DNA of 50,142 nucleotides from Candidatus Bathyarchaeota archaeon (GTDB lineage: Archaea > Thermoproteota > Bathyarchaeia > Bathyarchaeales > SOJC01): contig CP070730.1 in the NCBI GenBank assembly GCA_020351305.1, positions 665,153-715,294 on the forward strand, read 5' to 3'. Shown in pieces: positions 1,851 through 41,604 of the stretch. The notes beneath the pieces are model-generated. The model saw only the letters and a program-made list of their open reading frames with translations, made no database searches and was not told the origin of the DNA. The position numbers were made by a program, and so were the translations under genes. How positions within the stretch are numbered: the stretch's first letter is position 1; each line of letters opens with the position of its first letter.

Positions 1851-1913
1851 ACATGTGTGTGATTACTACCCTAAAGATAATAAACCCCTGCTTCATAATT
1901 GTCTAGAAGAAGA

Positions 1914-3359
1914 ATGAAAAAGCCTGCTAACAGAGTATTGCTGGCACTGCAACTTTTGAGTTTTGTGATTATTGCATCAAATATGCATGTGATCAAATCA
2001 GTCGAGAATACCCGCTTAATGACAAATGGTAGTCCGTACATGACTGTAGTGAATCCTACGACCAGCGACGGCAACTTCACTTTCTTCACAGAGACGACAG
2101 AAGTTGGTGACACTTTCCTTGCCAACATTACAGTCTTCGATGTATCAGGATTAGAAGCATGGCAACTAAACTTAACATTTGATACAACTATGCTAGCAGT
2201 CAATAATATATCCGCCCCCGCAGACCATGTCTTTGTAGACCAGTTTTTCTTTGAAGGTTCAAAAAGCATTAACAACAATGTTGGCTACGCTACATGGTGG
2301 ATGGCTTTAGGAGTTGGCACCACTCCTGTTAATGTCAGCTCAGAAGGAGCTAGGCTCTGCCAACTTCAATTCAATATAACTGCGAGCCCAGCGATAAATG
2401 AGACACTATCATCACTTATTCACATAGTAGTAGCTGGTGAAAGCCTATTCTATAGTAAGCTGGAGCCTTCAATAGCTTTTACTACATTAGACGGACAATA
2501 TGACTACACTGATCTTGGTATTCATGATGTAGCGATCACTGGTATTACACTCTCTGAAACTTTAGTCCCGCAAGGGTATGGTGTGGGGATAAATATCACG
2601 GCTGAGAATAAAGGCAATTTTACAGAGCAAATTAATCTAACGCTCTACGCCAATACGACTATCATCAACACACAGAACGTTACTTTGGTCAGTGGAAGCA
2701 GTATCATCATTCCCGCTCATTGGAATACTTCAGGTTTTGATTTAGGCAACTATAGTATCACAGCTGTTGCAGCTCCTGTTGTGGATGAAATGAATACAAC
2801 TGATAACACCTACATAGATGGGGTGGTCACTCTACGCGCGCCCATTCGTGACATTAGCATTCTAGACATTCTACCAACAAAGACGGTGGTCGAAGAGGGC
2901 AATTTAATATACATAACTGTAACGGTTGAAAATCAAGGCGAGATTATGGAGACATTCAATATAACAGTCTATGCGAATACAACTTCTGTAAACCTTGTGG
3001 ATGTTGCACTGTCAAGTGGAAATGTTTCAAACCCAGCAATAGCATGGAATACTACTGGCTTCACCAAAGGCAACTACACTTTGAGTGCCTACGCTTGGCC
3101 CCTTTCTGGCGAGAATGATACTGCAGACAACATAATGCTCGATGGCTGGATTTTCCTAACGATCCTAGGTGATGTAAATAATGACAGAATAGTCGACATA
3201 ACAGACATAGTCATGACCATAACGGCTTTTGGAAAAAGTAGCGAAGATCCTGGATGGTTCGAACCAAATTGGTTCTCGAATATGGATGTTAACAACGATG
3301 ATCTAATTGACATAACAGACATAACAACAGTTATAGTAGAATTCGGCAACTCATGGTAA
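1914..3359 (+). CDS. Exported cohesin-like / CARDB / dockerin protein
   Basis: An N-terminal signal peptide (KK charge then LLALQLLSFVIIA) is followed by a cohesin-like beta domain at about residues 40-195 (VGDTFLANITVFDVSG, WQLNLTFD). Two CARDB-type domains follow at about 200-305 and 310-415. A C-terminal type I dockerin with two Ca-binding repeats (GDVNNDRIVDITDI and MDVNNDDLIDITDI) ends exactly in FGNSW. There are many N-x-S/T sequons. A TTG at 1899, five codons upstream in frame, is an alternative start; the ATG at 1914 gives the cleaner signal peptide. Cohesin and dockerin on one chain suggest surface assembly or self-association, which is an inference. Two other genes in the window carry the same CARDB-dockerin tail. 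Confidence 0.8.
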   Translation: MKKPANRVLLALQLLSFVIIASNMHVIKSVENTRLMTNGSPYMTVVNPTTSDGNFTFFTETTEVGDTFLANITVFDVSGLEAWQLNLTFDTTMLAVNNISAPADHVFVDQFFFEGSKSINNNVGYATWWMALGVGTTPVNVSSEGARLCQLQFNITASPAINETLSSLIHIVVAGESLFYSKLEPSIAFTTLDGQYDYTDLGIHDVAITGITLSETLVPQGYGVGINITAENKGNFTEQINLTLYANTTIINTQNVTLVSGSSIIIPAHWNTSGFDLGNYSITAVAAPVVDEMNTTDNTYIDGVVTLRAPIRDISILDILPTKTVVEEGNLIYITVTVENQGEIMETFNITVYANTTSVNLVDVALSSGNVSNPAIAWNTTGFTKGNYTLSAYAWPLSGENDTADNIMLDGWIFLTILGDVNNDRIVDITDIVMTITAFGKSSEDPGWFEPNWFSNMDVNNDDLIDITDITTVIVEFGNSW

Positions 3360-4300: not shown

Positions 4301-4303
4301 TGT

Positions 4304-4810: not shown

Positions 4811-7800
4811 TCTCTTTTTCCTCCTTGAATAGCCGCTACTATTTGATCCAATATCTGTTCCTGTCTGTAATGTTGCATGTCAATGGCGCCAGTTGGGCAA
4901 GCAACAGAGCAAGCGCCACAGCCTTGGCAGACAGCTTCAAGAATTTTTGCAGTACTCTTTTCCTTACCTTCCATGGTTTTGTCTTCCATGTTAATAGCTT
5001 GGTAGGGACAGACGGATTCACAAATCCTGCAGCCACTGCATAGATTCTCGTCAATTACGGCAATTAGTGGTTCAATTTCAACCTCCCCAGTTGCAAGCAA
5101 TTCGGCAGCTTTCATTGCTGCTCCACTCGCTTGAGAAACTGTATCTGGAATGTCCTTGGGGCTCTGACAGGTTCCTGCTAGGAATATTCCTCGGGTCGGG
5201 GTTTCGAGTGGTCTTAGCTTAGGGTGAGTTTCTAGGAAGAAGCCGTCTGGGCTCCGTGGAATACGCAGGATTTTCTGCAATTCACCAAAGTCTGGTGAAG
5301 ACACAAGGCCGGAAGAGAGCACGACTATGTCGGCTTGAATTTCGAGAAGTTTGCTTGTGTTCGATTCAAAGACGTCAAAGTGCAGTGAGTTGTCAGGGTT
5401 TCGTTTCACTTCTGAAGGAAATCCCTTCACGAATTTGATATCCATGTGACGAGCTCGATCATAGAATTCCTCATAGGCTTTGCCAAAGGCTCGCATGTCG
5501 TTGTAGCAGATATAGACATCGACATCGTGACCAAGCTTCTCTTTCAGTAGAATCGCTTGTTTCAGGGTCACCATACACCCGATGCGACAGCAATGCTTGC
5601 AGAACCTTTTGTCTCTGCTTCCAACACATTGAATGAATGCTACACTCTTTGGTGGCTTTCCTGTGGTGGGACAGAGTACCTTTCCTCCGGATGGTCCTGC
5701 TGCATTAGACAATCTCTCAAACTCCAAGTTGCTGATAACATTCTTGTAGCGCTCATATCCTAATTCAGGAGTCAGAGAGGCGTCAAAAACTTCGCACCCC
5801 ACAGCTACAATTATCCCGCCAACCTCACGAGTAACTAATTCCTCTTTCTGTTGATGGTTGACCACGCCTGCAAGTTCACAAACTTTTTCACATTCTAAAC
5901 ATTCTGAACAACCACCGCAAGCAAGACATCTATTAGCCTCTTCTAAAACCATTTCTTCTGTGAACCCTAAGGATACTTCTTTATCGCTGGCTCTCTGGTC
6001 AAGCGAGAGCAGGGGCATGACTTGCCTTGGGCTCTTTTTGATCCCTTCTATTGGCACTTCTCCAACTTCCGAAACTACCTCTTCTCTGCCAGCATGTAGG
6101 TCTAAGCCTCTTAGGAAGCGATGAATAGATACAGCTGCTTTTTTTCCATGAGCAATAGCATCGATAACTGTGGCTTCTCCTCTAACCGCGTCCCCGCCAG
6201 CAAATATTCCTGACAAATTTGTTTGAAAGGTAATAGGGTCAACAGAAATTGTCCCGTTTTGGGAAAGTTTCAGGTTTCTTGGCAGAGGAGTAGTATCCAA
6301 GGCCTGCCCAATCGCTGATATCACCGTATCAACTTCTATGATGAACTCTGAGCCATCAATAGGGATTGGACGTCTGCGACCTGTTTTATCAGGCTCCCCT
6401 AATACCATTTTTATACATTCTAAAGCAACTGTGTTTTCATTATCACCCAAGATTCTCACTGGAGAAATTAAAAAGCGAAGTTTGATCCCTTCTTTCTCAG
6501 CTTCCTCCACCTCTACAGGGTAAGCAGGCATCTCTGCTCTTGATCGACGGTATAAAACTGTGACCTCTTTCGCTTTATGTCGAAGAGCTGATCTTGCCGC
6601 ATCGATAGCAACATTTCCACCACCGATTACTGCAACCTTATGACCAATCTTGATAGGGATATTCAGGTTTCTATGTTTCAAGTAATCTATTGCTGATATC
6701 ACACCGTTTAGTTCCTCCCCAGCGATCCTGAGTTTTCTAGCCTTTTGAACACCCACTGCAAAGAATATCGCTTGGTAACCTTGTTGCTGAAGTTCATCCA
6801 AAGTCAGGTCTTTGCCAATTGTCACGTTTGTTCTGATTTCAACGCCTATGCTTCTAATTAAATGGATCTCTTCCTCCAGCGTACTTTTAGGCAGTCGATA
6901 CTCCGGTATGCCCACTCTCAGCATTCCACCAGGTTTTGGTAAGGACTCAAAGACCGTTACTTGGTAGCCCATGCTGGTTAGCTCATAAGCAGCTGCTAGT
7001 CCTGCTGGTCCTGAACCGATTATAGCGACTCTTTCCGGAAATTCTTTGGGGATAGGTTTTTGGCTCTCCCTCTCTTGACCTAAGACATAGTCAGCTACAA
7101 ACCGTTTTATTGCGTTAATCGCCACTGGCTCGTCAAGTTTTCCACGTTCACACTCATTCTCACAGGGATGAAAGCAAACTCTTCCACAAACCGATGGGAA
7201 GGGGATGAATTTTTTAATAAGCTCATAAGCCTCTTTGAACTTGTTCTGACTTGCTAGGGCAACATATCCCTGAACATTAACTCCAGCAGGGCATGCCACT
7301 CTGCATGGAGGAGTGCCCTTTTTATCAATGGTAAAAACGTTGGGAACTGCCTGTGGAAAGGGTCTGTAAACAGCTTTTCTCGTATTTAAGCCTAGATCAA
7401 ACTCACTAGGCATAGAAACAGGACACACTTTTTCGCATTCGCTGCACCCAGTGCACTGGTCCTTGTCTACATATCGAGGCTTCTTTCGAATAGTCACCTC
7501 ATAATTCCCAACAAATCCGTTCACGTTCTCAACTTCAGCATACGCCAACAACTCAACGTTCGGATGCCTACCAACTTCTGCCATTTTTGGCGTAAGGATG
7601 CACGCACTGCAATCCAGTGTTGGAAAAGTCTTATCAAGCTGAGCCATCCTCCCGCCTATGCTGGGAGATTTCTCAACAAGGGATACTTTGAATCCATCAT
7701 TAGCTAAATCCAGAGCTGCTTGAATCCCAGCGATTCCACCCCCGATTACGAGAACACTTTTCTTGGCTTTTATCTTACCTCTTTTGAGGGGTTCCAAGCG

Positions 7801-8226
7801 AGATGCTCTGGCAACAGCCATAGCAAGGAGAGCTTGAGCTTTTTCAGTGGCTTTTTCTGGCTCATTTGTATGAACCCATGAATCCTGCTCACGAATGTTA
7901 ATCATTTCCAGCAGGTAAGGGTTTAATCCTGCCTCGCTGATTGCTTTCCGAAAAGTTTCTTCATGCATTCTAGGGGAGCAAGAGGCCACTACAATTCGGT
8001 TTAGTCTGTGTTTTTCAATATCCTCTTTGATTATCTTCTGTCCAGCATCAGAGCAGAGATATGTGTTATCTCTTGCAACTTTCACATTAGGAAGCTTTGA
8101 GGCGTATTCAGCAACACTCTTTGAGTCAACTACCCCAGCAATGTTCAATCCGCAATGGCACACATAAACACCTAGCCGAGTCAAGATCTGACGCCCTCTT
8201 ATTACAGAGTAGTTTAGGAATACCAT
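4807..8226 (-). CDS. hdrA: HdrA with inserted GltD/NfnB-like NAD(P)H oxidoreductase module
   Basis: 1139 residues, against roughly 650 for a methanogen HdrA. The N-terminus (GVYVCHCGLNI near 19-29), the FAD-binding GGGIAG near 162 and the CTGCSECEKVC cluster near 258-268 are canonical HdrA. At about residue 300 the HdrA sequence is interrupted by a GltD/NfnB-like block. That block has CRVACPAGVNVQGYVAL near 308, a second dinucleotide fold GSGPAGLAAAYEL near 404, a third (GGGNVAIDAAR) near 535 and AGGDAVRG near 676. HdrA sequence resumes by about 765-810 (CLACGGCSECLECEKVC, EVGGIIVAVG) and ends with two ferredoxin clusters (CSGCRICESVCP, CQGCGACSVACP). The design implies electron exchange between NAD(P)H, ferredoxin and HdrBC, possibly by flavin bifurcation (inference). 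An alternative TTG start at 8184 has an AGAGGG site upstream and removes 14 residues. Confidence 0.93.
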   Translation of the reverse strand: MVFLNYSVIRGRQILTRLGVYVCHCGLNIAGVVDSKSVAEYASKLPNVKVARDNTYLCSDAGQKIIKEDIEKHRLNRIVVASCSPRMHEETFRKAISEAGLNPYLLEMINIREQDSWVHTNEPEKATEKAQALLAMAVARASRLEPLKRGKIKAKKSVLVIGGGIAGIQAALDLANDGFKVSLVEKSPSIGGRMAQLDKTFPTLDCSACILTPKMAEVGRHPNVELLAYAEVENVNGFVGNYEVTIRKKPRYVDKDQCTGCSECEKVCPVSMPSEFDLGLNTRKAVYRPFPQAVPNVFTIDKKGTPPCRVACPAGVNVQGYVALASQNKFKEAYELIKKFIPFPSVCGRVCFHPCENECERGKLDEPVAINAIKRFVADYVLGQERESQKPIPKEFPERVAIIGSGPAGLAAAYELTSMGYQVTVFESLPKPGGMLRVGIPEYRLPKSTLEEEIHLIRSIGVEIRTNVTIGKDLTLDELQQQGYQAIFFAVGVQKARKLRIAGEELNGVISAIDYLKHRNLNIPIKIGHKVAVIGGGNVAIDAARSALRHKAKEVTVLYRRSRAEMPAYPVEVEEAEKEGIKLRFLISPVRILGDNENTVALECIKMVLGEPDKTGRRRPIPIDGSEFIIEVDTVISAIGQALDTTPLPRNLKLSQNGTISVDPITFQTNLSGIFAGGDAVRGEATVIDAIAHGKKAAVSIHRFLRGLDLHAGREEVVSEVGEVPIEGIKKSPRQVMPLLSLDQRASDKEVSLGFTEEMVLEEANRCLACGGCSECLECEKVCELAGVVNHQQKEELVTREVGGIIVAVGCEVFDASLTPELGYERYKNVISNLEFERLSNAAGPSGGKVLCPTTGKPPKSVAFIQCVGSRDKRFCKHCCRIGCMVTLKQAILLKEKLGHDVDVYICYNDMRAFGKAYEEFYDRARHMDIKFVKGFPSEVKRNPDNSLHFDVFESNTSKLLEIQADIVVLSSGLVSSPDFGELQKILRIPRSPDGFFLETHPKLRPLETPTRGIFLAGTCQSPKDIPDTVSQASGAAMKAAELLATGEVEIEPLIAVIDENLCSGCRICESVCPYQAINMEDKTMEGKEKSTAKILEAVCQGCGACSVACPTGAIDMQHYRQEQILDQIVAAIQGGKRE

Positions 8227-12419: not shown

Positions 12420-13736
12420 TTAACTTGGACCTCTGAAACGTCCGCCAGCAAAGACATCTGCCTTGAACATTGCTGCATCTGCTCGGATGAATCCTGAACC
12501 CCAGTCTATACCGTACCAAGTGAAATACCACATGTAATCTGGTGGAAAGTCGATAGCCCATGAACCATCACATGGCAAAGGTAGTGAAGCTGCAGCAGTT
12601 TTGAGGATAAACGCAACTTCGTCTTGCGTGAGGTCTGGATGTGATTGAAGGACTAAAGCAGCAGTTCCTGAGACGTGTGGCGCAGCCATACTTGTGCCCC
12701 AAAGGTAATAGTATCCAATGGAATAACTGAAATAGCTTTTATAGGGTCCTACAACTGCAGCACCAGGAGCAGTAACATCAAGATGGAAGGATTTTTGTCC
12801 AAGGTCTAAGTTTGGTCGAGAACTCAGGTAGTCAAGGAATAGTTGCCAGTTATTTCCCCAAAAGTCTGGGGTATTTAGATCTTCTGGCACATCAGCTACC
12901 CAACTGTGAAGGAATTGCTCAGTCCAGCCTGCCATTGCACAGGAAATGACTTGTGGGAATGCACCAGGCCAACCCATGCCATCATATCCTCTGTTGCCTG
13001 CTGAAGCAACTACAATGACACCTTTGCTTATTGCATAGTCGATAGCAGCTTCTTCGAGCGCACCAGGTGATGAACCTCCTAAGCTCATGCTTATAATTAC
13101 AGGGCCATCCAAACTTTCAGCTAGATCTGCAACATAGAAGATACCAGCTGCCACCATCTCTTCAGTGCCACCAGTCCATCTAGCTACTCCGCCAGGGTAA
13201 GGTATTTCCCACGCATCAAGAACAAGCACAGGAATTATGGTTGCTTTTGGTGCAACGCCTTTGATCCAGTAAATGTTGTTATAATTGAAACCTACGATGG
13301 TGCTTGTTACGTGGGTTCCGTGTCCAGAGCCTTCAAATGGTTTTGTGATGAATCCTCTGTCATCACGAAGCGGACCCATCCAGAAACCATCGTCCCACCA
13401 GATGTCGTGAGTGAAGCCTATCCCTAGCTCCCAAGCAATATCAGCTTGCGAGAAAAAGAAGGGCCACTCTTGAAGTAAGCCTGTGTCTAAGACTGCTACA
13501 TACACACCTTCACCATCGTTTGGAATCTCAGCATCGATAATATCGACATTCCAAGGTGTCAGTTCAGGAAGCCCGTTGCTTTCTACCATTCCAGCATCAT
13601 ATTCCGCTAGAAGATGTTCTTTCGCCAATGCAACATCATAGGTGATTGTGATATCATCAGTTGTTTGGGCCATCGGAATCATTGTGAACGCAAGCACTGA
13701 TAGCAAAGTTACTACAAATAGTGTTGTCTTATTCAT
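12420..13736 (-). CDS. Secreted subtilisin-like serine protease (S8)
   Basis: 438 residues from the ATG at 13736, which is preceded by AGGAGA at a proper distance and gives a clean signal peptide (MNKTTLFVVTLLSVLAFTMIPMAQ). The open frame reaches 13883, but the extra 49 residues spoil the signal. Catalytic motifs are complete: VAVLDTG (Asp) near residue 80, GSGHGTHV (His) near 142, SAGN (oxyanion Asn) near 250, and GTSMAAPHVSG (Ser) near 360. It is extracellular by prediction. It is divergent from a second subtilase, with 194 bases between the two starts. No dockerin or anchor is present. Confidence 0.92.
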   Translation of the reverse strand: MNKTTLFVVTLLSVLAFTMIPMAQTTDDITITYDVALAKEHLLAEYDAGMVESNGLPELTPWNVDIIDAEIPNDGEGVYVAVLDTGLLQEWPFFFSQADIAWELGIGFTHDIWWDDGFWMGPLRDDRGFITKPFEGSGHGTHVTSTIVGFNYNNIYWIKGVAPKATIIPVLVLDAWEIPYPGGVARWTGGTEEMVAAGIFYVADLAESLDGPVIISMSLGGSSPGALEEAAIDYAISKGVIVVASAGNRGYDGMGWPGAFPQVISCAMAGWTEQFLHSWVADVPEDLNTPDFWGNNWQLFLDYLSSRPNLDLGQKSFHLDVTAPGAAVVGPYKSYFSYSIGYYYLWGTSMAAPHVSGTAALVLQSHPDLTQDEVAFILKTAAASLPLPCDGSWAIDFPPDYMWYFTWYGIDWGSGFIRADAAMFKADVFAGGRFRGPS

Positions 13737-13889
13737 TGCATCTCTTCTCCTTTCTGCAACCATAGAATGCATTTTTCTACTTTTGAACTTTGTGGAGATA
13801 TCCTCTATTGATACCCCGCGCACGCTCAATGTAGACACGCATGATGCATGTGCGGGCATAGAATTTTTTACCATAAAATTCAAAAGCAG

Positions 13890-13912
13890 AGGTTTTGATA
13901 TATTTCACACTA
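13890..13912 (+). promoter_or_regulatory. Candidate TATA region in the divergent subtilase intergenic region
   Basis: An AT-rich stretch, GGTTTTGATATATTTCACAC, lies 20-40 bases before the ATG at 13931 and fits an archaeal BRE/TATA region with a short leader. Further toward the minus-strand gene are CGCGCACGC and a GATGCATGTGC stretch (13826-13855), including a TGATGCATG palindrome-like block. The call rests on position and composition only. Confidence 0.35.
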
Positions 13913-13930
13913 ATAAAAGAGAGGAGAAGG

Positions 13931-15337
13931 ATGAGAAAAATATCTATTGTTTCAGTGTTGTTGCTTGTTGTACTCGCTTTTTCAACCCTACCGTTTGTAT
14001 ACTCAGAAACGCCAACTATAGAAACGATGACAGAAGCTCCAGGTTACTTGGTTGAGTTCAAAGGATCTAAGCTTCCCAAGAATGCTGAAGCCATCATTGA
14101 AGGATGTGGGGGAGCTGTAACCTCAATGTTACCTGAGATAGCTGTAGTCGGGGCAATGCCAAATGGAAATCCAGCTGACTTTGAGGCAGCGCTTGCCAAT
14201 AACGATGCAATCAAATGCTTTGACCATGATTACATTGTAGAACTCCCTGACATTTCAATGACACCAGTCACGGAGGAATTACAATTCGAAAGCAACGGTC
14301 CATTGTTTACCGATCCCTATTATTGGGTTTACCAATGGCACCTATGGCACACAATTGAAGTCTCCCCATGGGCAGCGTGGACGATTACTACTGGTAGCCC
14401 TGACATAAGCGTAGCTGTTTTAGATACAGGCATTGATTGGAACCATGGTGACATTGCACCAAACTATGATTTTGGTGCGAGCGCGTCATTTGTGCCCTAC
14501 GAGGACGAGATGGACTACCATGGACATGGAACTTGGTGCGGTGGCCTAATAGCAGCAGCTGTGAACGATGACCCCAATGATTGGAAGGTTATCGGCATTG
14601 GTCCAAACCTGAACCTTGTTAACCTCAAGGTGATGGATTCCTCTGGTGGAGGGTATTTCTCATGGACATTCCAGGCAGTCTACCACGCAGTTGCCCACGG
14701 TGTAGATGTCATTTCAATGTCCTTTGGAGGCTACTTGCCTAGAGGTGTCGATCGCAGTTTCCTCAGCATCTGCAACAAAGTCTTCAATTATGCACAGCGG
14801 AATGGCATTGTCTGCGTTGCCTCAGCTGGAAACGCAGGAATACACATGGATGATTTCCATGCCTATTATGTTCACATCCCCAGTCAATGCGAGGGTGTTA
14901 TCGATGTCATTGCTACAGACATACATGATGGAAGAGCTCCATACAGCAATTATGGCTCTTCCTTGCACGGAATTTCAGCCCCAGGCGGATATTGGGAATT
15001 CAATGAACCATCCTGGTACGAACCCGTAATTCCTCCAGCATTTTGGGCACCACATTATGGCTTTACCTTCAGCACAACTACCACAGTCAGCGGATACAAG
15101 TATATGTGGGCATATGGCACAAGCATGGCTTGTCCACACGTAGCTGGTGTTGCTGGCTTAATTCTATCAGTCAATCCAAACCTTAGACCATCACAAGTGA
15201 GGCATCTCCTATTCACAGGCGCAGTAGATCACGGAGACCCTGGTTTTGACGAAATCTACAATTTCGGTCTGCTGAATGCATATAACTCTCTGCAACTCGC
15301 TTTGAAAACATTGCGTGCACCCACAGCTGGACCTTAA
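13931..15337 (+). CDS. Secreted subtilisin-like serine protease (S8) with N-terminal propeptide
   Basis: 468 residues from the ATG at 13931, directly after GAGGAGAAGG. The signal peptide is KISIVSVLLLVVLAFSTLPFVYSE. Residues about 35-100 (GYLVEFKGSKLPKNAEAIIEGCGG) look like an I9-type inhibitory propeptide. The catalytic domain shows VAVLDTGIDW (Asp), DYHGHGTWCGG (His), SAGN (Asn) and GTSMACPHVAGVAG (Ser). It differs from the neighbouring subtilase in carrying a recognisable propeptide, so this copy probably self-processes. The shared intergenic region suggests coordinate expression. Both probably degrade external protein. Confidence 0.92.
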   Translation: MRKISIVSVLLLVVLAFSTLPFVYSETPTIETMTEAPGYLVEFKGSKLPKNAEAIIEGCGGAVTSMLPEIAVVGAMPNGNPADFEAALANNDAIKCFDHDYIVELPDISMTPVTEELQFESNGPLFTDPYYWVYQWHLWHTIEVSPWAAWTITTGSPDISVAVLDTGIDWNHGDIAPNYDFGASASFVPYEDEMDYHGHGTWCGGLIAAAVNDDPNDWKVIGIGPNLNLVNLKVMDSSGGGYFSWTFQAVYHAVAHGVDVISMSFGGYLPRGVDRSFLSICNKVFNYAQRNGIVCVASAGNAGIHMDDFHAYYVHIPSQCEGVIDVIATDIHDGRAPYSNYGSSLHGISAPGGYWEFNEPSWYEPVIPPAFWAPHYGFTFSTTTTVSGYKYMWAYGTSMACPHVAGVAGLILSVNPNLRPSQVRHLLFTGAVDHGDPGFDEIYNFGLLNAYNSLQLALKTLRAPTAGP

Positions 15338-18941: not shown

Positions 18942-20525
18942 ATGAACGCACAAAAGCTATTAGTTATTGTGGTAGATTTAAATTGGGATGGGATCTTGAA
19001 TAGAGTTTTTTCTACTTTTTTATTAGCATTTCTCACTATTACCATTCTTGCATCACTTGAGTTAGTTGTCGTTTTAGCGGCTGATGCTCACAATGAAATT
19101 GAAGTGCCTTTCCACTATCAAGCTACAGATTACTACTGCGGTCCAGCTTGTGCGGAAATGGTTTTTGACTATTATGGTGAGGACATAAGTCAGTTTGAAA
19201 TCGCAGATGTTGCAAGAACAGACCCAGAATATATGGGAACCTATACTGTTGACATGGTGCGAGCTGGACACTTCAGCAATCAAAGCACATCAGTTGGAAA
19301 TGAGCAACCAGGAAGCATTACAGGATATTCTCTACGCAAAATTGGCTATGCATCATTCGAAAGATGGGATCTAACTATAAATGATCTAAAAACACTCATT
19401 AATGGTGGATACCCAGTGATATTGCTCATGTGGTACGGACCCACACATGGCTCGGGACACTATCGAGTCGCTATTGACTACAATGAAACACACATGATTG
19501 TTCATGACCCATGGCCCGCTATAGGCTGGGGAGGCGAGATTGGGGGTCCTAACGTTGCCTTCAACTACTCAACCTTCTTGGATCTTTGGGAATATTCGGG
19601 ATATTGGGGCATGATTTCACTTCCTTGGAGCATAACGATAAGCCATGAACCCGAGATCTATCGGGATGAAGTCTTTTCTGTAACAGCTAATGCAACGTAT
19701 CCGTGTCCAAGTCCATTCTGGGATAGTGATTACCCTGCTTCAGCTGTTAATTTCACTATTGGACTTTCAGATGGTCTTAATCTAACGTTCGGTGAAAGCG
19801 CTAGAAAATCTGTAGGTAATTTGCAGGCTGGTCAAACAGCATCTGTGAGTTGGGATTTGGAAGCTGACACATCTGGAAACAAGACAATCAATATTGAAGT
19901 CGGGGGAATCGTTGAAGGATCAGTCTTTCCCAACCCACCGGTCTATCCAGGCTATGATTATGAAGACTTGATTGGTGCTTCTGCGAATTTCACATTGGAA
20001 ATAATTGGGTACATACATGATGTTGCAATAACAGATCTTAACTCAAAAACTTGCGTTGGAGAAGGCCTTGAATGCTCAATTCACCTATCTGTGATGAATG
20101 AAGGCGAATTCACTGAAGAAGTGAATATCACAGTCTACGCCAATTCAACGATAATCCAGTCACAGAACATCACGTTGAGGGTAGGTCAATTAATAATACT
20201 GGACATTACATGGGATACTACAAGTTGTATTATGGGTAATTATACTCTACTTGGCTACGCTTTGCCAGTTCCCAACGAAAACGATACTGCAGACAACACT
20301 CTAGAACAGGGTTGGATCCTCCTGACAGTAGCTGGCGATGTCAACGGTGATCAAATCACGGACATTACAGATATTACGATGACAGTTTCAAACTACGGCA
20401 AAACTAGTAATAGTCCTGGATGGCATGAACCAGACTGGTACGTAAACTGCGACATGAACAACGATAACATTATTGACATAACGGACCTTGTTCTAGTGAT
20501 TGGAGAATTCGGCAATTCATGGTAG
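18942..20525 (+). CDS. Exported C39-like peptidase / CARDB / dockerin protein
   Basis: 527 residues. A signal segment (FLLAFLTITILASLELVVVLA, about 27-47) is followed by a C39-like papain-fold domain at about 55-225. It has VPFHYQATDYYCGPACAEM, with the catalytic-type Cys of the YYCGPA motif, and GHYRVAIDY with His, then HDPW. Next come a beta-rich spacer (about 230-360), one CARDB domain (about 365-455) and a type I dockerin (GDVNGDQITDITDI; CDMNNDNIIDITDL) ending in FGNSW. It may cleave or bind peptides at the surface. Its tail is close to those of the genes at 1914 and 39037. A candidate TATA (ATAAATATG, 18911-18919) lies about 25-30 bases upstream of the start. Confidence 0.82.
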   Translation: MNAQKLLVIVVDLNWDGILNRVFSTFLLAFLTITILASLELVVVLAADAHNEIEVPFHYQATDYYCGPACAEMVFDYYGEDISQFEIADVARTDPEYMGTYTVDMVRAGHFSNQSTSVGNEQPGSITGYSLRKIGYASFERWDLTINDLKTLINGGYPVILLMWYGPTHGSGHYRVAIDYNETHMIVHDPWPAIGWGGEIGGPNVAFNYSTFLDLWEYSGYWGMISLPWSITISHEPEIYRDEVFSVTANATYPCPSPFWDSDYPASAVNFTIGLSDGLNLTFGESARKSVGNLQAGQTASVSWDLEADTSGNKTINIEVGGIVEGSVFPNPPVYPGYDYEDLIGASANFTLEIIGYIHDVAITDLNSKTCVGEGLECSIHLSVMNEGEFTEEVNITVYANSTIIQSQNITLRVGQLIILDITWDTTSCIMGNYTLLGYALPVPNENDTADNTLEQGWILLTVAGDVNGDQITDITDITMTVSNYGKTSNSPGWHEPDWYVNCDMNNDNIIDITDLVLVIGEFGNSW

Positions 20526-26015: not shown

Positions 26016-27359
26016 CTAGCCTTCAGAATATGTTGCAGTGTTTCCTCTCTCTGTGACTACTCTAATGATGAAGTTACTTGGTAGACTTATGTCTGTCCTA
26101 GTGTATGCTATTGTGTCTGCTGCATTGACATACAAATCTATGTTGTATCTTCTGTGGGCAGTCGAATTATTTATCCATAAAGAAACGAGATGGCAAGTAA
26201 AAGATCCATCATTGTAGAACACAAACTGCGTCATTTCGCGCGCGTGCACCCTTACTGCTAGAAAATCAATGTCAAGAACCGTTTGAACACTATCTCCTCC
26301 TTCGTCGACGGTCCTCACATATATTGCCCCGTTATTGTATACATAGCTATTCCATTGGTTAGTGAGGTTTACAGCATAATAGTCCCAACCTGTTGTTGGT
26401 GTGTGACCTGCGGTGGAATTGAAACCGTCATCATTGAATGTTCCAGATGTCCAATTGTAAGCTTTTAGGAACCATTTTTCACCTGTGTCATTGGCCATAT
26501 ATCTCAATAGTATTTCGACAGTCTGAATAGAACCTGAAGGATATGCAGATAGGTCTATGTTAAACATTCCGTCCAAATCAAGTTGGTACACCTGTGATTC
26601 CCTTTTTACCGTGACATAATCAATCCAAGCGTTTTCTGGCGGATTAACAGAGACTGCTGACCATCGTATCCTGAAATTTGACACAAAATATTGGCTGTCC
26701 GTAATATTTTGTTGATAATGGAGCCACTGGCCTTCCTGCGTTGTGGATCCTAGGTCGGAAATTGTATCCCAGGTGCCCCCGTCATAATATCTAAGAAGAA
26801 GATCATCTGTATCAAGACCATCATCTCTATACCAGAAATCCACATAAATCACGCTCGCATTTGAGCAATCTAGATCAGGAGTTGTTAAATCCCCAAACTC
26901 TAATCCGGAACAGTCAAAGTCCGCGGAGTAGATTCCATCATATGCCTGTTGGCTCTCTCTGTCCCATCTTCCAGTTTCAGTCCAATTTGTCGGAGGCCAA
27001 GTACCCTCAAACGATTCTGCGTTAATGAGCGTCGTATTAGTCGTCTCACTAAATCTCTCATAAGTGCCATCAACGACTTGTGTGTCTTCATATGTACCGG
27101 CTATTTGGTTGCCTGCCCACACCGTGTATTCGCTTTGAGCGGTAAACCAAGAAGACCATTCATTTACACTGGCAACATCTGTAATCGTGATGTCTTCGTT
27201 AATTTTCTCCCAATCAAGCTGATTCATCTGATAGCTCCAAAGAATTATGTTGGATGCAATGATAACTAATATCACAAGACTTAGCACCATGACTATGACG
27301 TTACTCACACCACGTTTGTTCCGCCTAAACTTAGACAGGTGCTCTGTAATAATCCACAA
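26016..27359 (-). CDS. Large type IV pilin with adhesin-like ectodomain
   Basis: 447 residues. The start (FRRNKRGVSNVIVMVLSLVILVII) is a class III signal peptide with cleavage expected after KRG, followed by the archaeal pilin hydrophobic helix. Residues about 110-240 are a MAM/concanavalin-like beta sandwich: AESFEGTWPPTNWTETGRWDRES, VDFWYRDDG, LLRYYDGGTWDTISD. A second beta-rich region follows, so this is far larger than a standard pilin (100-150 residues). It is last in the pilus operon and its start lies inside the previous gene by 29 bases. It probably acts as the tip or adhesive subunit. A CGCGCGCGTG tract occurs in the reading frame near 26237. Confidence 0.72.
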   Translation of the reverse strand: MWIITEHLSKFRRNKRGVSNVIVMVLSLVILVIIASNIILWSYQMNQLDWEKINEDITITDVASVNEWSSWFTAQSEYTVWAGNQIAGTYEDTQVVDGTYERFSETTNTTLINAESFEGTWPPTNWTETGRWDRESQQAYDGIYSADFDCSGLEFGDLTTPDLDCSNASVIYVDFWYRDDGLDTDDLLLRYYDGGTWDTISDLGSTTQEGQWLHYQQNITDSQYFVSNFRIRWSAVSVNPPENAWIDYVTVKRESQVYQLDLDGMFNIDLSAYPSGSIQTVEILLRYMANDTGEKWFLKAYNWTSGTFNDDGFNSTAGHTPTTGWDYYAVNLTNQWNSYVYNNGAIYVRTVDEGGDSVQTVLDIDFLAVRVHAREMTQFVFYNDGSFTCHLVSLWINNSTAHRRYNIDLYVNAADTIAYTRTDISLPSNFIIRVVTERGNTATYSEG

Positions 27360-27744
27360 TTTTTGTCCCTCTACTAGTTACAATGTTTATGTGATACAAA
27401 CCTCCAGCTGTCCAGCTGAAAGTAATGTTTAACCATCCATGTTCCTCAGCTTCCAATGTAAATGGTGTGAAAGACTGGCTCGTGAAGTTCAAATACACTG
27501 AAGATACTTCGATGCTAACCTTTCCCACATTGCGCAAGTAGATCGAGATACCGTCTTGTGTGAACCAGACATCCTCAGCAATAACCCGTTCTCCCATGAT
27601 TTGACGGAGGTTGTCAGTTATTACATATGTTGCTGAAGCGGCTAAAGACATTGCTGCAACCGCTACAACTGTAAGTAGAACATTACTTAGAACCGGCGTA
27701 ACACCACGTTTATTTTTAAATAATCTCCTTAACACAGCCCTCAA
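27331..27744 (-). CDS. Type IV pilin-like minor subunit
   Basis: 137 residues with the class III motif NKRGVTPVLSNVLLTVVAVAAMSLAASATYV near residues 11-40. Cleavage is expected after KRG, before a typical archaeal pilin helix (PF07790-like). A small beta domain follows (WFTQDGISIYLRNVGKVSIEVSSVYLNF). The start overlaps the upstream TadC gene by four bases, and its end overlaps the large pilin by 29. It is a structural or minor pilin processed by a prepilin peptidase not in the window. Confidence 0.82.
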   Translation of the reverse strand: MRAVLRRLFKNKRGVTPVLSNVLLTVVAVAAMSLAASATYVITDNLRQIMGERVIAEDVWFTQDGISIYLRNVGKVSIEVSSVYLNFTSQSFTPFTLEAEEHGWLNITFSWTAGGLYHINIVTSRGTKIVDYYRAPV

Positions 27745-28565
27745 CCAACCAGCATTAGAGCAATGTATCCGCTAACCATGAGAATTATGCTGTGCTTTAA
27801 GCCAGCCCCAACCGTGCCTTCACCCATTTTTCCAGAAACTAACCCGCCAAAGAAGGCTTGTAAAATGCTCATGTGAAAGAAAAATTGCCTTGCTTCCTCG
27901 GGAGTCAACGCAACAAAGCCCATTGAAGGGAGATTTTCCATTTCTACAAAGAATGTTCTAAAAAGTAGGATAATAGTAAACACGAAGACAAAAAATGCTA
28001 CATAGACTATTGCGATGTAAGGTCTTGTCTGAGCTTTGCGTTCCTTTTCCATCGTAAGATTGGATTGAATGAAGCCTCCTAGTGGAGCAAGGACTTTTTC
28101 TACGTGCCCACCAGAATGACTAGCCTCAATGATCAGAGGTACAGTTCTCTGAACCAAAGCGGTATCAACACGCTTACCAAATTCTTGAAGTGCTCTTTCA
28201 AAAGACAGCCCCCAAGACATTTGGTTCACAATCTTTTTAAACTCCTCAGTTAAGGGACCATAATTTCGTTTAGTGGCTTCTTCCAAAGCTTGGGGCAATG
28301 TCATGCCTGCTTGTTGAGCCTGAACAATGCTTCTAAACAAGTCTGGCAAATGCTTGTCAATAGATTTTTTCCAACGATAGTCAGCATAGTCTAAGACCGC
28401 TGCAGGAAAGACAGCGACTATGATAGCAAAGAAGAGATAATCCTCAAAAAGGGGCTTACCTCTTAACGTTAAGACCGCTGTGGCAATTATGATCCCGGAG
28501 AGACCAATAGGGACTATCCAAGCAATTTTCTTTTCCCATCTGCTAATTTTTCTCACTTTCACCAC
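27741..28565 (-). CDS. Pilus assembly membrane protein, TadC/FlaJ-like (second copy)
   Basis: 274 residues with a T2SSF-type core: cytosolic helices FRSIVQAQQAGMTLPQALEEATK, LVQRTVPLIIEASHSGGHVEKVL, and hydrophobic helices IVPIGLSGIIIATAVL, YLFFAIIVAVFPAAVLDY, AIVYVAFFVFVFTIILLF and a C-terminal HSIILMVSGYIALML. The IEASHSGG motif is typical of archaeal TadC. It overlaps the preceding TadC-like gene by seven bases. Together the two form the inner platform that the ATPase drives. Confidence 0.88.
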   Translation of the reverse strand: MVKVRKISRWEKKIAWIVPIGLSGIIIATAVLTLRGKPLFEDYLFFAIIVAVFPAAVLDYADYRWKKSIDKHLPDLFRSIVQAQQAGMTLPQALEEATKRNYGPLTEEFKKIVNQMSWGLSFERALQEFGKRVDTALVQRTVPLIIEASHSGGHVEKVLAPLGGFIQSNLTMEKERKAQTRPYIAIVYVAFFVFVFTIILLFRTFFVEMENLPSMGFVALTPEEARQFFFHMSILQAFFGGLVSGKMGEGTVGAGLKHSIILMVSGYIALMLVG

Positions 28566-29533
28566 CGAGGAGCAAGAGTATCCAATATTATTATGAAAAT
28601 AATCGAACCGACAGGAATGCCAATGTATGTCAAAAGCATGATTAGTAGTGTGGGACTGAGTATACCAAACCCTACATCTCCAAGCATGGCCATGACAATC
28701 AACATCACAATGAAAATGAGCGGTCCTGCCACAAGCAATGTTACATAGAACTCCGAGACAATTCCTAGGTTGTCAGAAAACTTTCTGAGGGCGATTCGTT
28801 TAAGCTTCATGTGTTGCCGCGAGATATCGAGTAAATAGGACATTAGGTTGCTGCCAGAATGAATAGTGGCTATGAATCCCTCTAGTAATCCCCTGAACTT
28901 CTCAGAGGAGGTTCGCTTCGACGCGTTCTCCAGAGAGGTAATTATGTCTGCACCAAAAAGCTCCACATCTCGAACAATAATTCTCGACTCATCAACAACA
29001 GCTAATTTCTGAGGAATCTTTGAAAGAGAACGAAACATTCTGTCAGGAGGAACACCAGCACCAGCTAAAATTGCTAAATAACCTGCTGTGAAGGACATGT
29101 TGTCATCTAGATTTTTTTTTCTGTTATCTGCTTGGTAAAGTGGATAAATATAGAAGAAAACGACTGTTAATGCACCAGCTAACAAACTGCCCCCAAACCC
29201 AAAGAGAATTGATGGGAAAAGAGCAATCTGCATAGCAATATGCATCACTGGAGGTACAAAGAGTAAAGCGGAAACAGCAACAGCCAAGCTTGTTAAGAGA
29301 GTTAGGCTGACATAGGGCTTGAAGCTTGTTCTCATTCCTGATTTATTCAATGCGGTATCCATGTCTCTGAAAAGAGGTAAAACCATATTTGCTCGCTTTC
29401 CTAGAAGCCGGTAAGCAAAAAGCTGGGGCTTCCACTTCGTTTGCCCCATGCCTCCTAATGATCTGTTAAAACGATTCAATATCAGGAGAAGCTTCGAGCG
29501 AGTTTTTTCTTTCGGCTGATGCTTTTTGTTCAC
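28559..29533 (-). CDS. Pilus assembly membrane protein, TadC/FlaJ-like (first copy)
   Basis: 324 residues. It has several membrane helices (SLTLLTSLAVAVSALLFVPPV, FGGSLLAGALTVVFFYIYPLY, FYVTLLVAGPLIFIVMLIVMAML, LIMLLTYIGIPVGSIIFIIIL) and a T2SSF-like cytosolic domain (AGYLAILAGAGVPPDRMFRSLSK). Its start overlaps the ATPase gene by four bases. Two unequal T2SSF-type subunits per operon is the usual archaeal Tad/pilus arrangement. Confidence 0.86.
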   Translation of the reverse strand: MNKKHQPKEKTRSKLLLILNRFNRSLGGMGQTKWKPQLFAYRLLGKRANMVLPLFRDMDTALNKSGMRTSFKPYVSLTLLTSLAVAVSALLFVPPVMHIAMQIALFPSILFGFGGSLLAGALTVVFFYIYPLYQADNRKKNLDDNMSFTAGYLAILAGAGVPPDRMFRSLSKIPQKLAVVDESRIIVRDVELFGADIITSLENASKRTSSEKFRGLLEGFIATIHSGSNLMSYLLDISRQHMKLKRIALRKFSDNLGIVSEFYVTLLVAGPLIFIVMLIVMAMLGDVGFGILSPTLLIMLLTYIGIPVGSIIFIIILDTLAPRW

Positions 29534-31056
29534 CTGCTTCCCATCCGTGCTTTTCGATAGACCCGTTCAGGATTTGCGTAGTACTCCCGAATTATACGGG
29601 CAACTTCTGTGTGTCTTCGTATGTTTTTTCTAGCCATCCATTCCAAAATGCTCTTTCTTTTACCAAGCTCAACTCCAACTTCTACTTCACTGACTCCCAT
29701 CTTTTTCATGCTTCTCTCCAAAATGTGACTACGCCCAGTGAATTCAAAGGAGTCATTTCTACGGTTCCAGTTGAACACGTTTTTTGTGGTCAATTCATTT
29801 GTCTTTGCATTGAGAGCTGTGACTTCAGTTACAGCTGACATTCGCCTCGCAGGTTTTCCATCAATCTCAGTTCTCACCTGAATTGTCACAACATCAATCA
29901 TAGCCAATAGAGGTTTAGGTATATTCATAGGCTCTGACTCTAATCTATTAAGAACCGAATTCACTGATTCTGCATGAATTGTACTCATGCCTAAATGCCC
30001 TGTTGCCATGGCCTGAAATAGGGTATAAGCTTCCTCACCTCTAACTTCACCCACTATAATGAAATCGGGACGTTGACGCACAGCAGCCTTTAGAAGGTCA
30101 AACAGTGTTATGGCGCCTGATCCTTTTTTCTCGTGCACAAAACTTGTTCTTACGACTGAGGGAATCCAATTTTCATGGGGCAAGTTAAGTTCCGCTGTGT
30201 CTTCAACGCTCACAATTTTAAGCTCCGGTTTAACAAACATGGAGAGACAGTTCAGTGTCGTAGTTTTTCCCGAAGCCACACCTCCAGCAACTAAAACAGA
30301 AGCTCTGTTTTCTATAACATACCAAAAATATGCCGCAATCTCTGGCGATAATGTATTTAAACTTATCAGGTCTGAAATTGTAAGCGGATCAACACGAAAG
30401 CGACGTATTGTGAAGGTGGAGCCGCGTCTCGTTATCTCATTTCCATAGGTTATCTGAATACGACTCCCATCTGGAAGGGATGAGTCCAACAACGGAGAAG
30501 CCTTAGAGACATTCTTACTAGAAAGGTACGCTAAACGGACAATGAAAGAATTCAGCTCATCTTCATCTGTGAAGATAATGTTGGTTGGCAAGGATTCATA
30601 TTCTCGATGCCAGACATAGACAGGGATGTTAACACCATCTTCAGATATATCTTCAACCATACGATCGTTCATTAGAGGATTGATTTTTCCATAATAGACA
30701 AAGTCTCGCACAATGTAATACATCAACTTGTCTACAGCTTCGTCAGCTATTTCTAAGCGATAATTCTTAATAACCTCCTTGATTTTCTGCCTTAAATATT
30801 CCGCTGCCTTCTCCCGAGTGTCAATTTCATTTAAATTGACATCGATTTCTTCCATCAAAATTTTTTTAATCTCTTCAAGCATTTGGGTTTCTTCTTTGCG
30901 TAGTGTTGGCTCGATTACTTCATAACGAATTTTCTGAGTTTCAGGATCTTTTACGATAGCAGCGTATACATAGGGTTCTTGAATAGGGTAAACTTCTCTG
31001 AACACTGAAAGTGCCTTTCTTCTCATTTCTTGAGTTGTCTTTGCCACTTTACCCAC
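29530..31056 (-). CDS. Type II/IV secretion ATPase, TadA/FlaI-like
   Basis: 508 residues. Walker A is VLVAGGVASGKTTTLNCL (about residues 255-272), followed by an Asp box (KIVSVEDTAELNL), Walker B (RPDFIIVGEVRGEEAYTLFQAM) and the HIS box (GHLGMSTIHAES). The N-terminal domain (about 1-180) has the archaeal form (VDKLMYYIVRDFVYYGKINPLMND, DGVNIPVYVWHREY). It powers assembly and is the first gene of a five-gene operon; the four overlapping junctions point to one transcript. Retraction by a second ATPase is not encoded here. Confidence 0.93.
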   Translation of the reverse strand: MGKVAKTTQEMRRKALSVFREVYPIQEPYVYAAIVKDPETQKIRYEVIEPTLRKEETQMLEEIKKILMEEIDVNLNEIDTREKAAEYLRQKIKEVIKNYRLEIADEAVDKLMYYIVRDFVYYGKINPLMNDRMVEDISEDGVNIPVYVWHREYESLPTNIIFTDEDELNSFIVRLAYLSSKNVSKASPLLDSSLPDGSRIQITYGNEITRRGSTFTIRRFRVDPLTISDLISLNTLSPEIAAYFWYVIENRASVLVAGGVASGKTTTLNCLSMFVKPELKIVSVEDTAELNLPHENWIPSVVRTSFVHEKKGSGAITLFDLLKAAVRQRPDFIIVGEVRGEEAYTLFQAMATGHLGMSTIHAESVNSVLNRLESEPMNIPKPLLAMIDVVTIQVRTEIDGKPARRMSAVTEVTALNAKTNELTTKNVFNWNRRNDSFEFTGRSHILERSMKKMGVSEVEVGVELGKRKSILEWMARKNIRRHTEVARIIREYYANPERVYRKARMGSR

Positions 31057-39036: not shown

Positions 39037-41604
39037 TTGAATCAACTTAAAATAGTGAGTATGAGGGCTGTAATACCATTCAGCCTTGTTTTAATTTTAT
39101 TGACTTGTATTACTTCAGTACCTGTGAATGTGAGGGCACACTATCCTAGTGCTGTGATAACCAGCTCGGGTGCGACTATCACACCAAATATAGATGGACA
39201 GTTTTCCGCAGGCGAGTGGGATGACGCGACCCCTTATCCTTTAGTCGACGCTTACACAGCTTACGGCTATTTCAAGAACAGCTGGGACTATCTCTATATC
39301 TTAATTGACGTCCCAACTACTATGCCCCAATATTCCTTCTTTCGTATGAGCTTTGACACTGGACATGATGAGGTTTATACCGCGGGCCACGATGATGATT
39401 TTCTTATTACCTCAGATGGGACAACATACCACTATGTCTCTAACGGAACTATAACACCAACAGGAGGGGATGAGTTTTGGGCTGACTATCATGAACACTG
39501 TTCGCCCTTCAACCCGTCCTACCTTCACCATGATGGCTTAGAGGGAGCCACGGGATTCAGCACCAGCCCAAATGACGCGGAGAGTCACAGGATATATGAG
39601 TTTTGCATTCCGTTGGATCTGCTTGGCCTCAACTCTTGGGCTGCGGAAAGAACGATCGGTTTCGCCCTCAGTGGCCCTCAGCGAGATGGAATGGGCGCGT
39701 GGCAATGGCCGGCTCACCAAACTGCAGGAGGATCCCGACCTCTAAGTGACTATGGCAACCTTGAGCTGGCATACTTCGGGGTCTTGGAGGGCGATCCTTT
39801 CACTCTGCTGGGGAACTTCCACGTTCGCTTTCTTGTCAATCCGCCAGTGCTCAATGTTACCGTAAGGAAGAGCAGCAACATAGACATGGAGTCGCTTCAG
39901 ATCAGTTATGGATCGCCAATTGACGTCTCCGGACAGCTGATCGACCCGGGTCTGGGGGGCATTCTCCTCTTGGAAGTTGAGACCGAGTACATCATCAACG
40001 ACGAATTCTATGAACTCACTGTTCACCCTCATACGCGAGCCGATGATTGGCCGATGTTCCGGCATGACCCAAGCAACAACGCGTTCTCCACGTCCCCCGC
40101 GCCTGGCACAAATCGAACATCGTGGGCTACTCCCATCGGTGTGAGTCCCCATGGAGTGTGTGTAGCCGGCGAAAACACCTACATATCAACGAGCGAGGGT
40201 ATGATCGTCGCGCTCGACGCTTTGAGCGGAGATTCGATTTGGCAGTACCAAACCGTGGGTCAAGCCCCCGGAACCCCTGCGGTCTCGAATGGAGTCGTTT
40301 ACATCGGCGCATCCAATCTGACCTCCCTTGACTACAGGCTCTACGCGCTGAACGCGTCGACAGGCCTCCCTATCTGGAACTACACCACTGGCGGACCGAT
40401 CGCTTCATCACCGACGGTAGCAAACGGCACCATCTACGTTGGCGCCAACGATGGGCTGCTCTATGCGCTGCAAGATTCTGGAGCGCTGCTATGGACGTAT
40501 AGCACCGGCGCCCCGATTGGCATGTCCAGTCCCACCGTCAGCGACATCGGCGTCGTGTTCATCGGGAACCTCGGAGGAAAGGTCTTCGCCCTGAACGCGA
40601 AGAATGGCGCCCACATCTGGAACTTCACCACTGGCGGCGGTATAACGACCTCCCCGGCGACCGCTCATGGCATGGTCTACGCGGGATCCGCCGACAACAA
40701 CGTCTACGGCCTGAACGCGTCTACTGGCGTGAAGATCTGGAACTATACAACCGGTGACGGAGTGCCATTCTCGAGTCCCGCCCTCGGCTACGGCAACGTC
40801 TACGTAGGCTCCTTGGATCACAACCTCTATGCGCTGGATGCCACCACCGGCAGCCATGTCTGGAACTACACAACGAAGGGGGATATCCTCTCATCCCCAG
40901 CAGTTGCTGACGGCAAAGTCTACCTGGGAACCAGCTTGGACGATGATACGGTCTACGCTTTCAACGCCTCCACGGGCGAAGTTCTGTGGACCTATGCGAC
41001 CGGCCTATCGTCATATAGAGCCAGCCCCGCCGTCGCCTATGGAAACGTCTACTTGGGCACGTTCAACAAGAGGGTCTACTGCTTCGGCCCCGAGCATGAC
41101 GTGGCCGTCCTCGACGTGCAACTCTCTAAAACAGTTGTCGGACAAGGGTACCCTGTGAACATCGACATCGCTCTTCGAAATAACGGCGACGTCAACGAAA
41201 TCATCCACACTCAGGTCCATTACAACGGACTCATTGACATATATCAAATGGCTGTCTGTGCAGAATGCACTGCAACATCAATAATCGAATGGAACACAAC
41301 TGAGGTGCCAAAAGGTAACTACACCATAACCGCAACCGCTCTTCCTATACCCGGAGAATTCCAAATAAGCGACAATACTGTAGTTGATGGCTGGGTTTTC
41401 TTAACCATTCTTGGAGATGTTAACGGTGACGAAATAGTGGACATCTCAGACATTACAATGACCATTGCTGTCTTTGGGAAGACTAATAGCAGCTATGGAT
41501 GGCTCGCACCTACATGGATCGTAAACATGGATGTTAATGACGATGGCATAATCGACATCACAGACATCGTCGCAGTCATCGGGCAATTCGGCAGTTCATG
41601 GTGA
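39037..41604 (+). CDS. Exported CBM9-like / PQQ-propeller / CARDB / dockerin protein
   Basis: 855 residues from a TTG start behind AGGAGAAAGGAG; ATG 39061 is the alternative. A signal peptide (SLVLILLTCITSV) leads to a CBM9/DOMON-like domain (about 50-260; IDGQFSAGEWDDA). A linker follows, then a PQQ-type beta-propeller at about 345-690 with repeats such as VYIGASN..LYALNASTG..IWNYTTGG. A CARDB domain (about 695-785) and dockerin (GDVNGDEIVDISDI; MDVNDDGIIDITDI) end in FGSSW. The propeller region is GC-rich (40501-40560 holds 40 G/C of 60) while the 5' end and the CARDB-dockerin end are AT-rich (41221-41280: 25 of 60). It may bind carbohydrate at the cell surface. Confidence 0.85.
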   Translation: MNQLKIVSMRAVIPFSLVLILLTCITSVPVNVRAHYPSAVITSSGATITPNIDGQFSAGEWDDATPYPLVDAYTAYGYFKNSWDYLYILIDVPTTMPQYSFFRMSFDTGHDEVYTAGHDDDFLITSDGTTYHYVSNGTITPTGGDEFWADYHEHCSPFNPSYLHHDGLEGATGFSTSPNDAESHRIYEFCIPLDLLGLNSWAAERTIGFALSGPQRDGMGAWQWPAHQTAGGSRPLSDYGNLELAYFGVLEGDPFTLLGNFHVRFLVNPPVLNVTVRKSSNIDMESLQISYGSPIDVSGQLIDPGLGGILLLEVETEYIINDEFYELTVHPHTRADDWPMFRHDPSNNAFSTSPAPGTNRTSWATPIGVSPHGVCVAGENTYISTSEGMIVALDALSGDSIWQYQTVGQAPGTPAVSNGVVYIGASNLTSLDYRLYALNASTGLPIWNYTTGGPIASSPTVANGTIYVGANDGLLYALQDSGALLWTYSTGAPIGMSSPTVSDIGVVFIGNLGGKVFALNAKNGAHIWNFTTGGGITTSPATAHGMVYAGSADNNVYGLNASTGVKIWNYTTGDGVPFSSPALGYGNVYVGSLDHNLYALDATTGSHVWNYTTKGDILSSPAVADGKVYLGTSLDDDTVYAFNASTGEVLWTYATGLSSYRASPAVAYGNVYLGTFNKRVYCFGPEHDVAVLDVQLSKTVVGQGYPVNIDIALRNNGDVNEIIHTQVHYNGLIDIYQMAVCAECTATSIIEWNTTEVPKGNYTITATALPIPGEFQISDNTVVDGWVFLTILGDVNGDEIVDISDITMTIAVFGKTNSSYGWLAPTWIVNMDVNDDGIIDITDIVAVIGQFGSSW

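Follow-up and report, generated by a model that had tools for sequence, protein, structure and literature searches.

Our best model of the DNA analysed here is that three of its genes encode components of a surface assembly built from cohesins and dockerins, with the binding itself deduced from the genes. We place the archaeon as Bathyarchaeia-like on its gene content and on the best named match, a Bathyarchaeota MAG. The window, by which we mean the whole analysed stretch of 50,142 nucleotides, corresponds to positions 665153-715294 of a 1.87-Mb genome. The last two modules of the three genes are a CARDB domain and a two-repeat type I dockerin (Dockerin_1), and we consider it likely (probability roughly 0.7) that this tail is a calcium-binding dockerin plug which docks secreted proteins into cohesins at the cell surface by means of lineage-specific contact residues. 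A surface plug is the most likely function since the dockerin is shared by 11 secreted proteins of a genome that also encodes cohesins of its own, including a seemingly membrane-anchored one.

The three open reading frames named in a preliminary description of the window are present at 1899 (TTG start, first ATG at 1914), 18942 and 39037, and they are the only genes in the window with dockerin tails. CARDB and dockerin fill approximately the last 170 residues of each, and the dockerin of 71-72 residues stops at the stop codon. The reading frames end in ...DGWVFLTILGDVN...FGSSW (the 39037 gene), ...DGWIFLTILGDVN...FGNSW and ...QGWILLTVAGDVN...FGNSW. Their parts are as follows, in window positions:

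1899..3359, plus strand: 1899 gene, 486 aa (ATG at 1914); signal peptide, cohesin-like domain, two CARDBs, dockerin
2034..2516, plus strand: cohesin-like domain of the 1899 gene; weak PF00963 match, 42-55% identity to domains of the cohesin cluster in the same genome
2880..3095, plus strand: final CARDB of the 1899 gene (Pfam stretch); PF07705, 4e-12
3141..3356, plus strand: dockerin of the 1899 gene, ending in FGNSW
18942..20525, plus strand: 18942 gene, 527 aa; signal peptide, C39-like peptidase, CARDB, dockerin
19101..19514, plus strand: Peptidase_C39_2 of the 18942 gene; PF13529, 1e-16
20043..20249, plus strand: CARDB of the 18942 gene (Pfam stretch); PF07705, 8e-4, under the gathering score, aligning with the other final CARDBs
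20310..20522, plus strand: dockerin of the 18942 gene, ending in FGNSW
39037..41604, plus strand: 39037 gene, 855 aa, TTG start; signal peptide, N-terminal domain, PQQ/BamB-like beta-propeller, CARDB, dockerin
40027..41091, plus strand: PQQ/BamB-like beta-propeller repeats of the 39037 gene; Pfam PF13570 7e-56 and PF13360 2e-50, matches to PDB propellers
41098..41385, plus strand: CARDB of the 39037 gene; below Pfam detection, assigned by an AF2 model (pLDDT 92.5) and a Foldseek match
41386..41601, plus strand: type I dockerin of the 39037 gene, 72 aa; Pfam PF00404, 8.6e-5
41416-41481, plus strand: dockerin repeat 1 of the 39037 gene
41530-41595, plus strand: dockerin repeat 2 of the 39037 gene
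41587-41601, plus strand: terminal FGSSW of the 39037 gene

The N-termini of the three proteins had been described as unrelated, and this holds: they are a cohesin-like domain, a Peptidase_C39_2 domain (E=1e-16) and a PQQ/BamB-like propeller (E=1e-50 to 1e-56). The CBM9 label given to the 39037 N-terminus is not supported, with neither a Pfam match at E<=1 nor a PDB match. The 39037 protein has a hydrophobic N-terminal segment (residues 3-34) and lacks a C-terminal membrane segment. The cohesin-like domain of the 1899 gene is 42% identical to one domain called Cohesin by Pfam. The ten best Foldseek matches of its AF2 model were all cohesins (E about 0.01-0.06), which is suggestive of a cohesin fold; this model is not counted as evidence, because its pLDDT of 57 is too low.

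The penultimate module was recognised as CARDB by Pfam in the 1899 gene and in a further tail gene with an SBP_5 domain, and by its fold in the 39037 gene, where the model matched 3idu/2kl6, the CARDB of PF1109, with E values of 3e-6 to 7e-6 and a target TM of 0.70-0.76. In each of the 11 dockerin tails of the genome the repeat occurs twice in tandem, and loop positions 1, 3, 5, 9 and 12 hold D/N-type residues, apart from an S at position 3 in one repeat. Three of the 11 genes exceed the PF00404 gathering cut-off of 22.9 bits (23.1 for the 39037 gene; the 1899 and 18942 genes, with 21.7 and 19.7, are slightly under it), and a profile of the 11 tails matched solved cellulosomal dockerins (2y3n_B at 4e-7, 2b59_B at 9e-6, 3kcp and 5g5d). 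The three tails in the window had been called near-identical, which overstates their similarity: the dockerins share 62-65% protein identity (63-69% at the DNA level) and the CARDBs 31-39%, and we therefore regard them as old paralogues and not as recent copies. Among all tails of the genome DNA identity is 50-72%, which rules out that the tail was duplicated or gene-converted recently.

Nine of the 11 tails have a terminal W at or adjoining the stop codon in the form of [FY]GxSW, FGSRW or FGSTW, one of them with a VAP extension, and the other two end in YGDSL and YGDEWQ. The preliminary description saw in this terminus a common surface-attachment or sorting signal. Since [FY]GxSW stands exactly at the stop codon and is conserved between proteins that are otherwise unrelated as well as between genera of the family, it could be conceived as a signal that is recognised and processed by an archaeosortase-like enzyme. 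However, repeat 2 (D-V-N-x-D-x-x-I-D-I-T-D-I-...-F-G-x-S-W) aligns with repeat 1 (D-V-N-G-D-x-I-V-D-I-T-D-I-...-F-G-K-...), so that FGxSW mirrors the end of repeat 1, and the terminus is predicted to be ordered in the AF2 model of CARDB and dockerin (mean pLDDT 92.5, last block 95). DSSP on this model places bridge residues at 129 and 167, matching positions behind repeats 1 and 2. Furthermore, every tail gene lacks a C-terminal hydrophobic segment, neither a membrane helix nor a basic tail follows FGxSW, and the PGF-CTERM-type layout of a short motif, a membrane helix and basic residues at the C-terminus is not found in the tail genes. NCBIfam sorting-signal models gave no match in the six tail proteins scanned, and some tails extend beyond the W (VAP, Q, EP, QP) or have SL instead. 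FGxSW is thus better explained as the edge of a folded docking module, and its processing as a sorting signal appears highly improbable; common surface attachment is plausible, but through dockerin-cohesin docking. The terminus probably helps to close the dockerin domain. A clasp between head and tail has been described for cellulosomal dockerins (PMC4728124), and the conserved GW at the head together with SW at the tail would fit a clasp that closes the domain.

The re-use of the tail as a module, proposed from the three genes in the window, extends through the genome. Counts for this genome come from sequence searches and the genome stretches around the matches and are not those of an exhaustive proteome. 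The tail search returned 25 places, 11 of which were strong (E<=5e-16) and C-terminal. These 11 genes are dispersed, with eight of them outside the window (low genome coordinates 297112, 337669, 487835, 617650, 747014, 870101, 1653672 and 1863077), and about ten more dockerins are of other types. The exact FGxSW-stop DNA pattern occurs four times in the genome, each time in frame at the end of a tail gene, compared with one match for the reversed pattern. Eight identifiable N-terminal types carry the tail (cohesin-like, C39, PQQ propeller, SBP_5, NosD, M14, M6 with NosD, and rhodanese), and two of the 11 proteins have an N-terminus without Pfam assignment. A NosD-type beta-helix segment is common to three of the genes. 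The number of CARDBs varies: the SBP_bac_5 gene at 1653672 has six, whereas the gene with a rhodanese and a beta-helix-like region has none; CARDB is absent from the 297112 gene. All nine tail genes with an intact 5' end have a signal-peptide-like start; the remaining two are the 337669 gene, which is interrupted by an assembly gap, and the SBP_bac_5 gene, in which a single in-frame TGA lies upstream of the reading frame start (L052, genome position 1653318) and reflects either a pseudogene or a sequencing error. Other arrangements of dockerins were also observed, namely 83-86-aa proteins that consist of a signal peptide and a dockerin and nothing else (L061:5010-5261 and L065:3650-3910), and proteins with a dockerin near the N-terminus, just behind the signal peptide, followed by more than 100 residues (L062:5228-5911 and L063:2634-3302).

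Cohesins are encoded in the same genome. PF00963 matches over the cut-off were found in three genes, accompanied by related domains, and the PF00963 cohesins lie in one cluster at 1249.6-1257.4 kb on the minus strand. From low to high coordinate, the cluster comprises a gene with two cohesins that is truncated by a gap, a gene for a membrane-helix cohesin-like protein, a scaffoldin-like gene, genes for a PKD-dockerin protein, for a cohesin protein and for an SBP_5 protein that ends in a dockerin, and a divergent ABC permease. Two of these genes lie next to each other at the following genome positions:

1250950-1251609, minus strand: membrane-helix cohesin-like protein, 219 aa; signal peptide, one cohesin-like domain
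1251697-1253643, minus strand: scaffoldin-like protein, 648 aa; N-terminal cohesin-like domain, two Pfam cohesins, CARDB, dockerin

The 219-aa protein has no Pfam match; its cohesin-like domain is 42% identical over 106 aa to that of the 1899 gene and is followed by a C-terminal membrane helix (residues 186-214) and then RRRYLALK. Single-cohesin proteins with a C-terminal helix were found in seven related genomes, and the small cohesins examined in the relatives G006, G012, G001, G010, G011 and G003 had no helix. The scaffoldin-like protein (L060:4698-6644, minus strand) and its orthologues (L214, L215, L216 and L217) have a conserved Cys at or adjoining the stop codon, their ends being FGNHC, FGQTC, YGQTCP, YGQSC and YGESC, and the cargo dockerins end in Trp. 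As a general rule for telling scaffold from cargo this fails outside the family, where a subtilase (L221) and a NosD protein (L220) carry the Cys.

In the mechanism that we propose, the dockerin tail, usually set on a CARDB spacer, is joined to many unrelated secreted proteins, and these would be held non-covalently, with the help of calcium, by cohesins on the cell surface, for which the 219-aa membrane-helix protein may be the final anchor. The cargo (C39, M14 and M6 peptidases, SBP_5, PQQ propeller and NosD proteins) might thereby cooperate at the surface, and all dockerins of one genome would co-evolve with a common cohesin set, giving rise to residues at positions 11 and 17 that are the lineage's own. 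A different function has to be weighed, in which the repeats are a calcium-binding structural cap or an S-layer or glycan adhesin that docks to no cohesin, with adhesion provided by CARDB. Dockerin-like repeats do exist outside cellulosomes, where their function is stated as unknown, and CARDB has been tied to adhesion (PMC5244752). Against such a cap or adhesin, PF00963 cohesins occurred in 20 of 20 tail-positive genomes versus 14 of 41 tail-negative ones (61 genomes, Fisher p=2e-7, a comparison confounded by phylogeny), the multi-cohesin scaffoldin-like gene adjoins that of the membrane-helix cohesin, and the genome-specific signal described below peaks at cohesin-contact positions. We therefore consider it improbable.

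Comparison with relatives indicated that the dockerin is not simply inherited together with its N-terminus. Same-family genomes of other genera contain 0-11 comparable tails each (E<=1e-10), on cargo that is partly different (ASST, PKD, M14, PQQ, NosD, SBP_5 and GHL10 among others), and a scan of the whole collection with the tail returned mainly distant bacterial dockerins, with a Bathyarchaeota MAG as the best match. The tails group by genome or group of genera and not by orthologous N-terminus; in the dockerin tree, which has few columns and many weak forks, the 14 dockerins of this genome need 2 changes compared with 12.7 for shuffled labels. The dockerins of the PQQ, M14 and NosD genes are 44-48% identical to that of the orthologue versus a mean of 58-62% to unrelated paralogues in their own genome, and for these three a single family inherited vertically with its N-terminus is rejected. 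In contrast, the CARDB follows the gene in the NosD pair and in the scaffoldin-like gene (46-49% to the orthologue versus 32-37% to paralogues), while the CARDBs of the PQQ, M14 and 747014 genes gave no gene-versus-genome signal.

The genome-wise grouping is most pronounced at two positions of the dockerin. In this genome all 22 repeats of the 11 tails carry T/S at position 11, and in four related genomes 56 of 58 repeats carry F/Y there; between the dockerins of the two sets this position reaches a divergence of 1.00 in both repeats (T/S, rarely E/I, versus F/Y, rarely L/V). Position 17 follows with a divergence of 0.91 (I versus A). In a wider tally of position 11, with dockerins collected from 20 genomes, T/S accounted for 32 of 39 repeats in this genome, F for 20/21 in G009, F/Y for 12/12 in G006 and 16/17 in G012, Y for 9/10 in G008, R/K for 15/15 in G021, K/R for 11/20 in G004 and K for 11/22 in G005; G013, G027 and G048 were mixed without a uniform code. 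Among 18 loop and helix positions in 16 genomes, positions 11 and 17 ranked first and second for genome-specific information, and the ranking was unchanged with one genome per lineage. In cellulosomal dockerins the contacts to the cohesin include positions 10 and 17 (PMC5590126) and residues 11, 12, 18 and 19 (PMC4728124), the latter being loop positions 10, 11, 17 and 18 by our count. As a caveat, two top-ranked positions out of 16 variable ones would land among four contact positions with a chance of about 1 in 20 by itself. Positions 11 and 17 are by analogy probable cohesin contacts in these tails as well, and a signal that is strongest there is what co-evolution with a genome's own cohesins predicts.

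The residue code, taken by itself and compatibly with docking, could also stem from the copying of a founder tail in each lineage, or from old gene conversion, with no part played by the cohesins. The tree is what copying would give, with tails grouped by genome and the dockerins of orthologous genes unpaired, and for many tails founder copying within each lineage is possible. The DNA identities within this genome speak against copying or conversion of recent date, and in the NosD pair the CARDB follows the gene (49% to the orthologue versus a mean of 37% to paralogues) and the dockerin the genome. Moreover, the dockerin of the scaffoldin-like protein shares the position-11 class of its genome's cargo in five genomes (G000, G009, G012, G008 and G021), yet retains features of its own, namely a VKIK-like lead-in and the C-terminal Cys. 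Taking both sides into account, we lean towards co-evolution as the origin of the code and regard founder copying as a serious but somewhat less favoured explanation.

Cohesin-dockerin systems are already known from archaea. In ANME archaea an extensive, non-cellulosomal set of cohesin-dockerin proteins has been described, among them scaffoldin-like proteins and cargo of the OppA type (PMC9012536; PMC5244752). The system described here resembles them in its varied dockerin cargo with NikA/OppA-type solute-binding proteins, in scaffoldin-like proteins that combine several cohesins with a dockerin and in the abundance of CARDB domains. It differs by its occurrence in another archaeal lineage, by the use of CARDB-dockerin as a common C-terminal cassette and by a cargo that includes C39, M14 and M6 peptidases, and while ANME-2c has S-layer domains joined to dockerins, here a membrane-helix cohesin adjoins the scaffoldin-like gene. 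With the bacterial cellulosomes of Clostridium thermocellum and others it shares a two-repeat, calcium-binding C-terminal dockerin on many secreted enzymes, and, as predicted, species-specific recognition residues and the logic of scaffoldin and anchoring cohesin. It differs from them in the CARDB linker, the putative anchoring by a membrane helix and the absence of cellulases and of a CBM scaffold among the tail genes. As Pfam detected neither a glycoside hydrolase nor a CBM among the tail genes of this genome, we do not class the system as a cellulosome. The penultimate module agrees in sequence and fold with the CARDB family (PF07705; PF1109 of Pyrococcus furiosus, 3idu), with the difference that it sits directly ahead of a dockerin.

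Bathyarchaeia occur in abundance in anoxic sediments. They are believed to feed in part on detrital protein, and pure cultures of them are hardly available. In the literature searched we found no description of the means by which they retain enzymes and uptake proteins outside the cell, nor of a cohesin-dockerin system in this group. Cohesins and dockerins, together with an encoded membrane anchor, would be a testable answer to how such proteins are retained. New are a CARDB-dockerin cassette that is carried by peptidases and uptake proteins, the adjoining membrane-helix cohesin and the genome-specific residue code. One could go further and envisage a surface "peptidosome", in which peptidases and oligopeptide-binding proteins sit on membrane-anchored cohesins and the dockerins of cargo and scaffold have switched their contacts jointly between T/S, F/Y and K/R during the divergence of the lineages, which would leave each genome with a docking code of its own, an idea that we put forward as speculative and rather unlikely in this full form. 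A lineage-specific code that is apparently genome-wide would allow the co-evolution of a one-to-many protein interface to be followed as a natural experiment, and docking specificity might perhaps be predictable from two positions.

Several other genes in the window deserve mention. On the minus strand, 4807-8226 encodes an HdrA-like protein of 1139 aa into which a GltD-like module (Fer4_20 and Pyr_redox_2) is inserted, and it is adjoined by genes at 3434-4810 that by eye resemble HdrB/HdrC. A divergent pair at 12420-13883 (minus) and 13895-15337 (plus) has by eye the look of secreted subtilisin-type proteases and carries no dockerin tail. Finally, 26016-31056 on the minus strand appears by eye to be a pilus- or archaellum-type operon that consists of genes for a secretion ATPase, for two membrane proteins and for a pair of pilin-like proteins.
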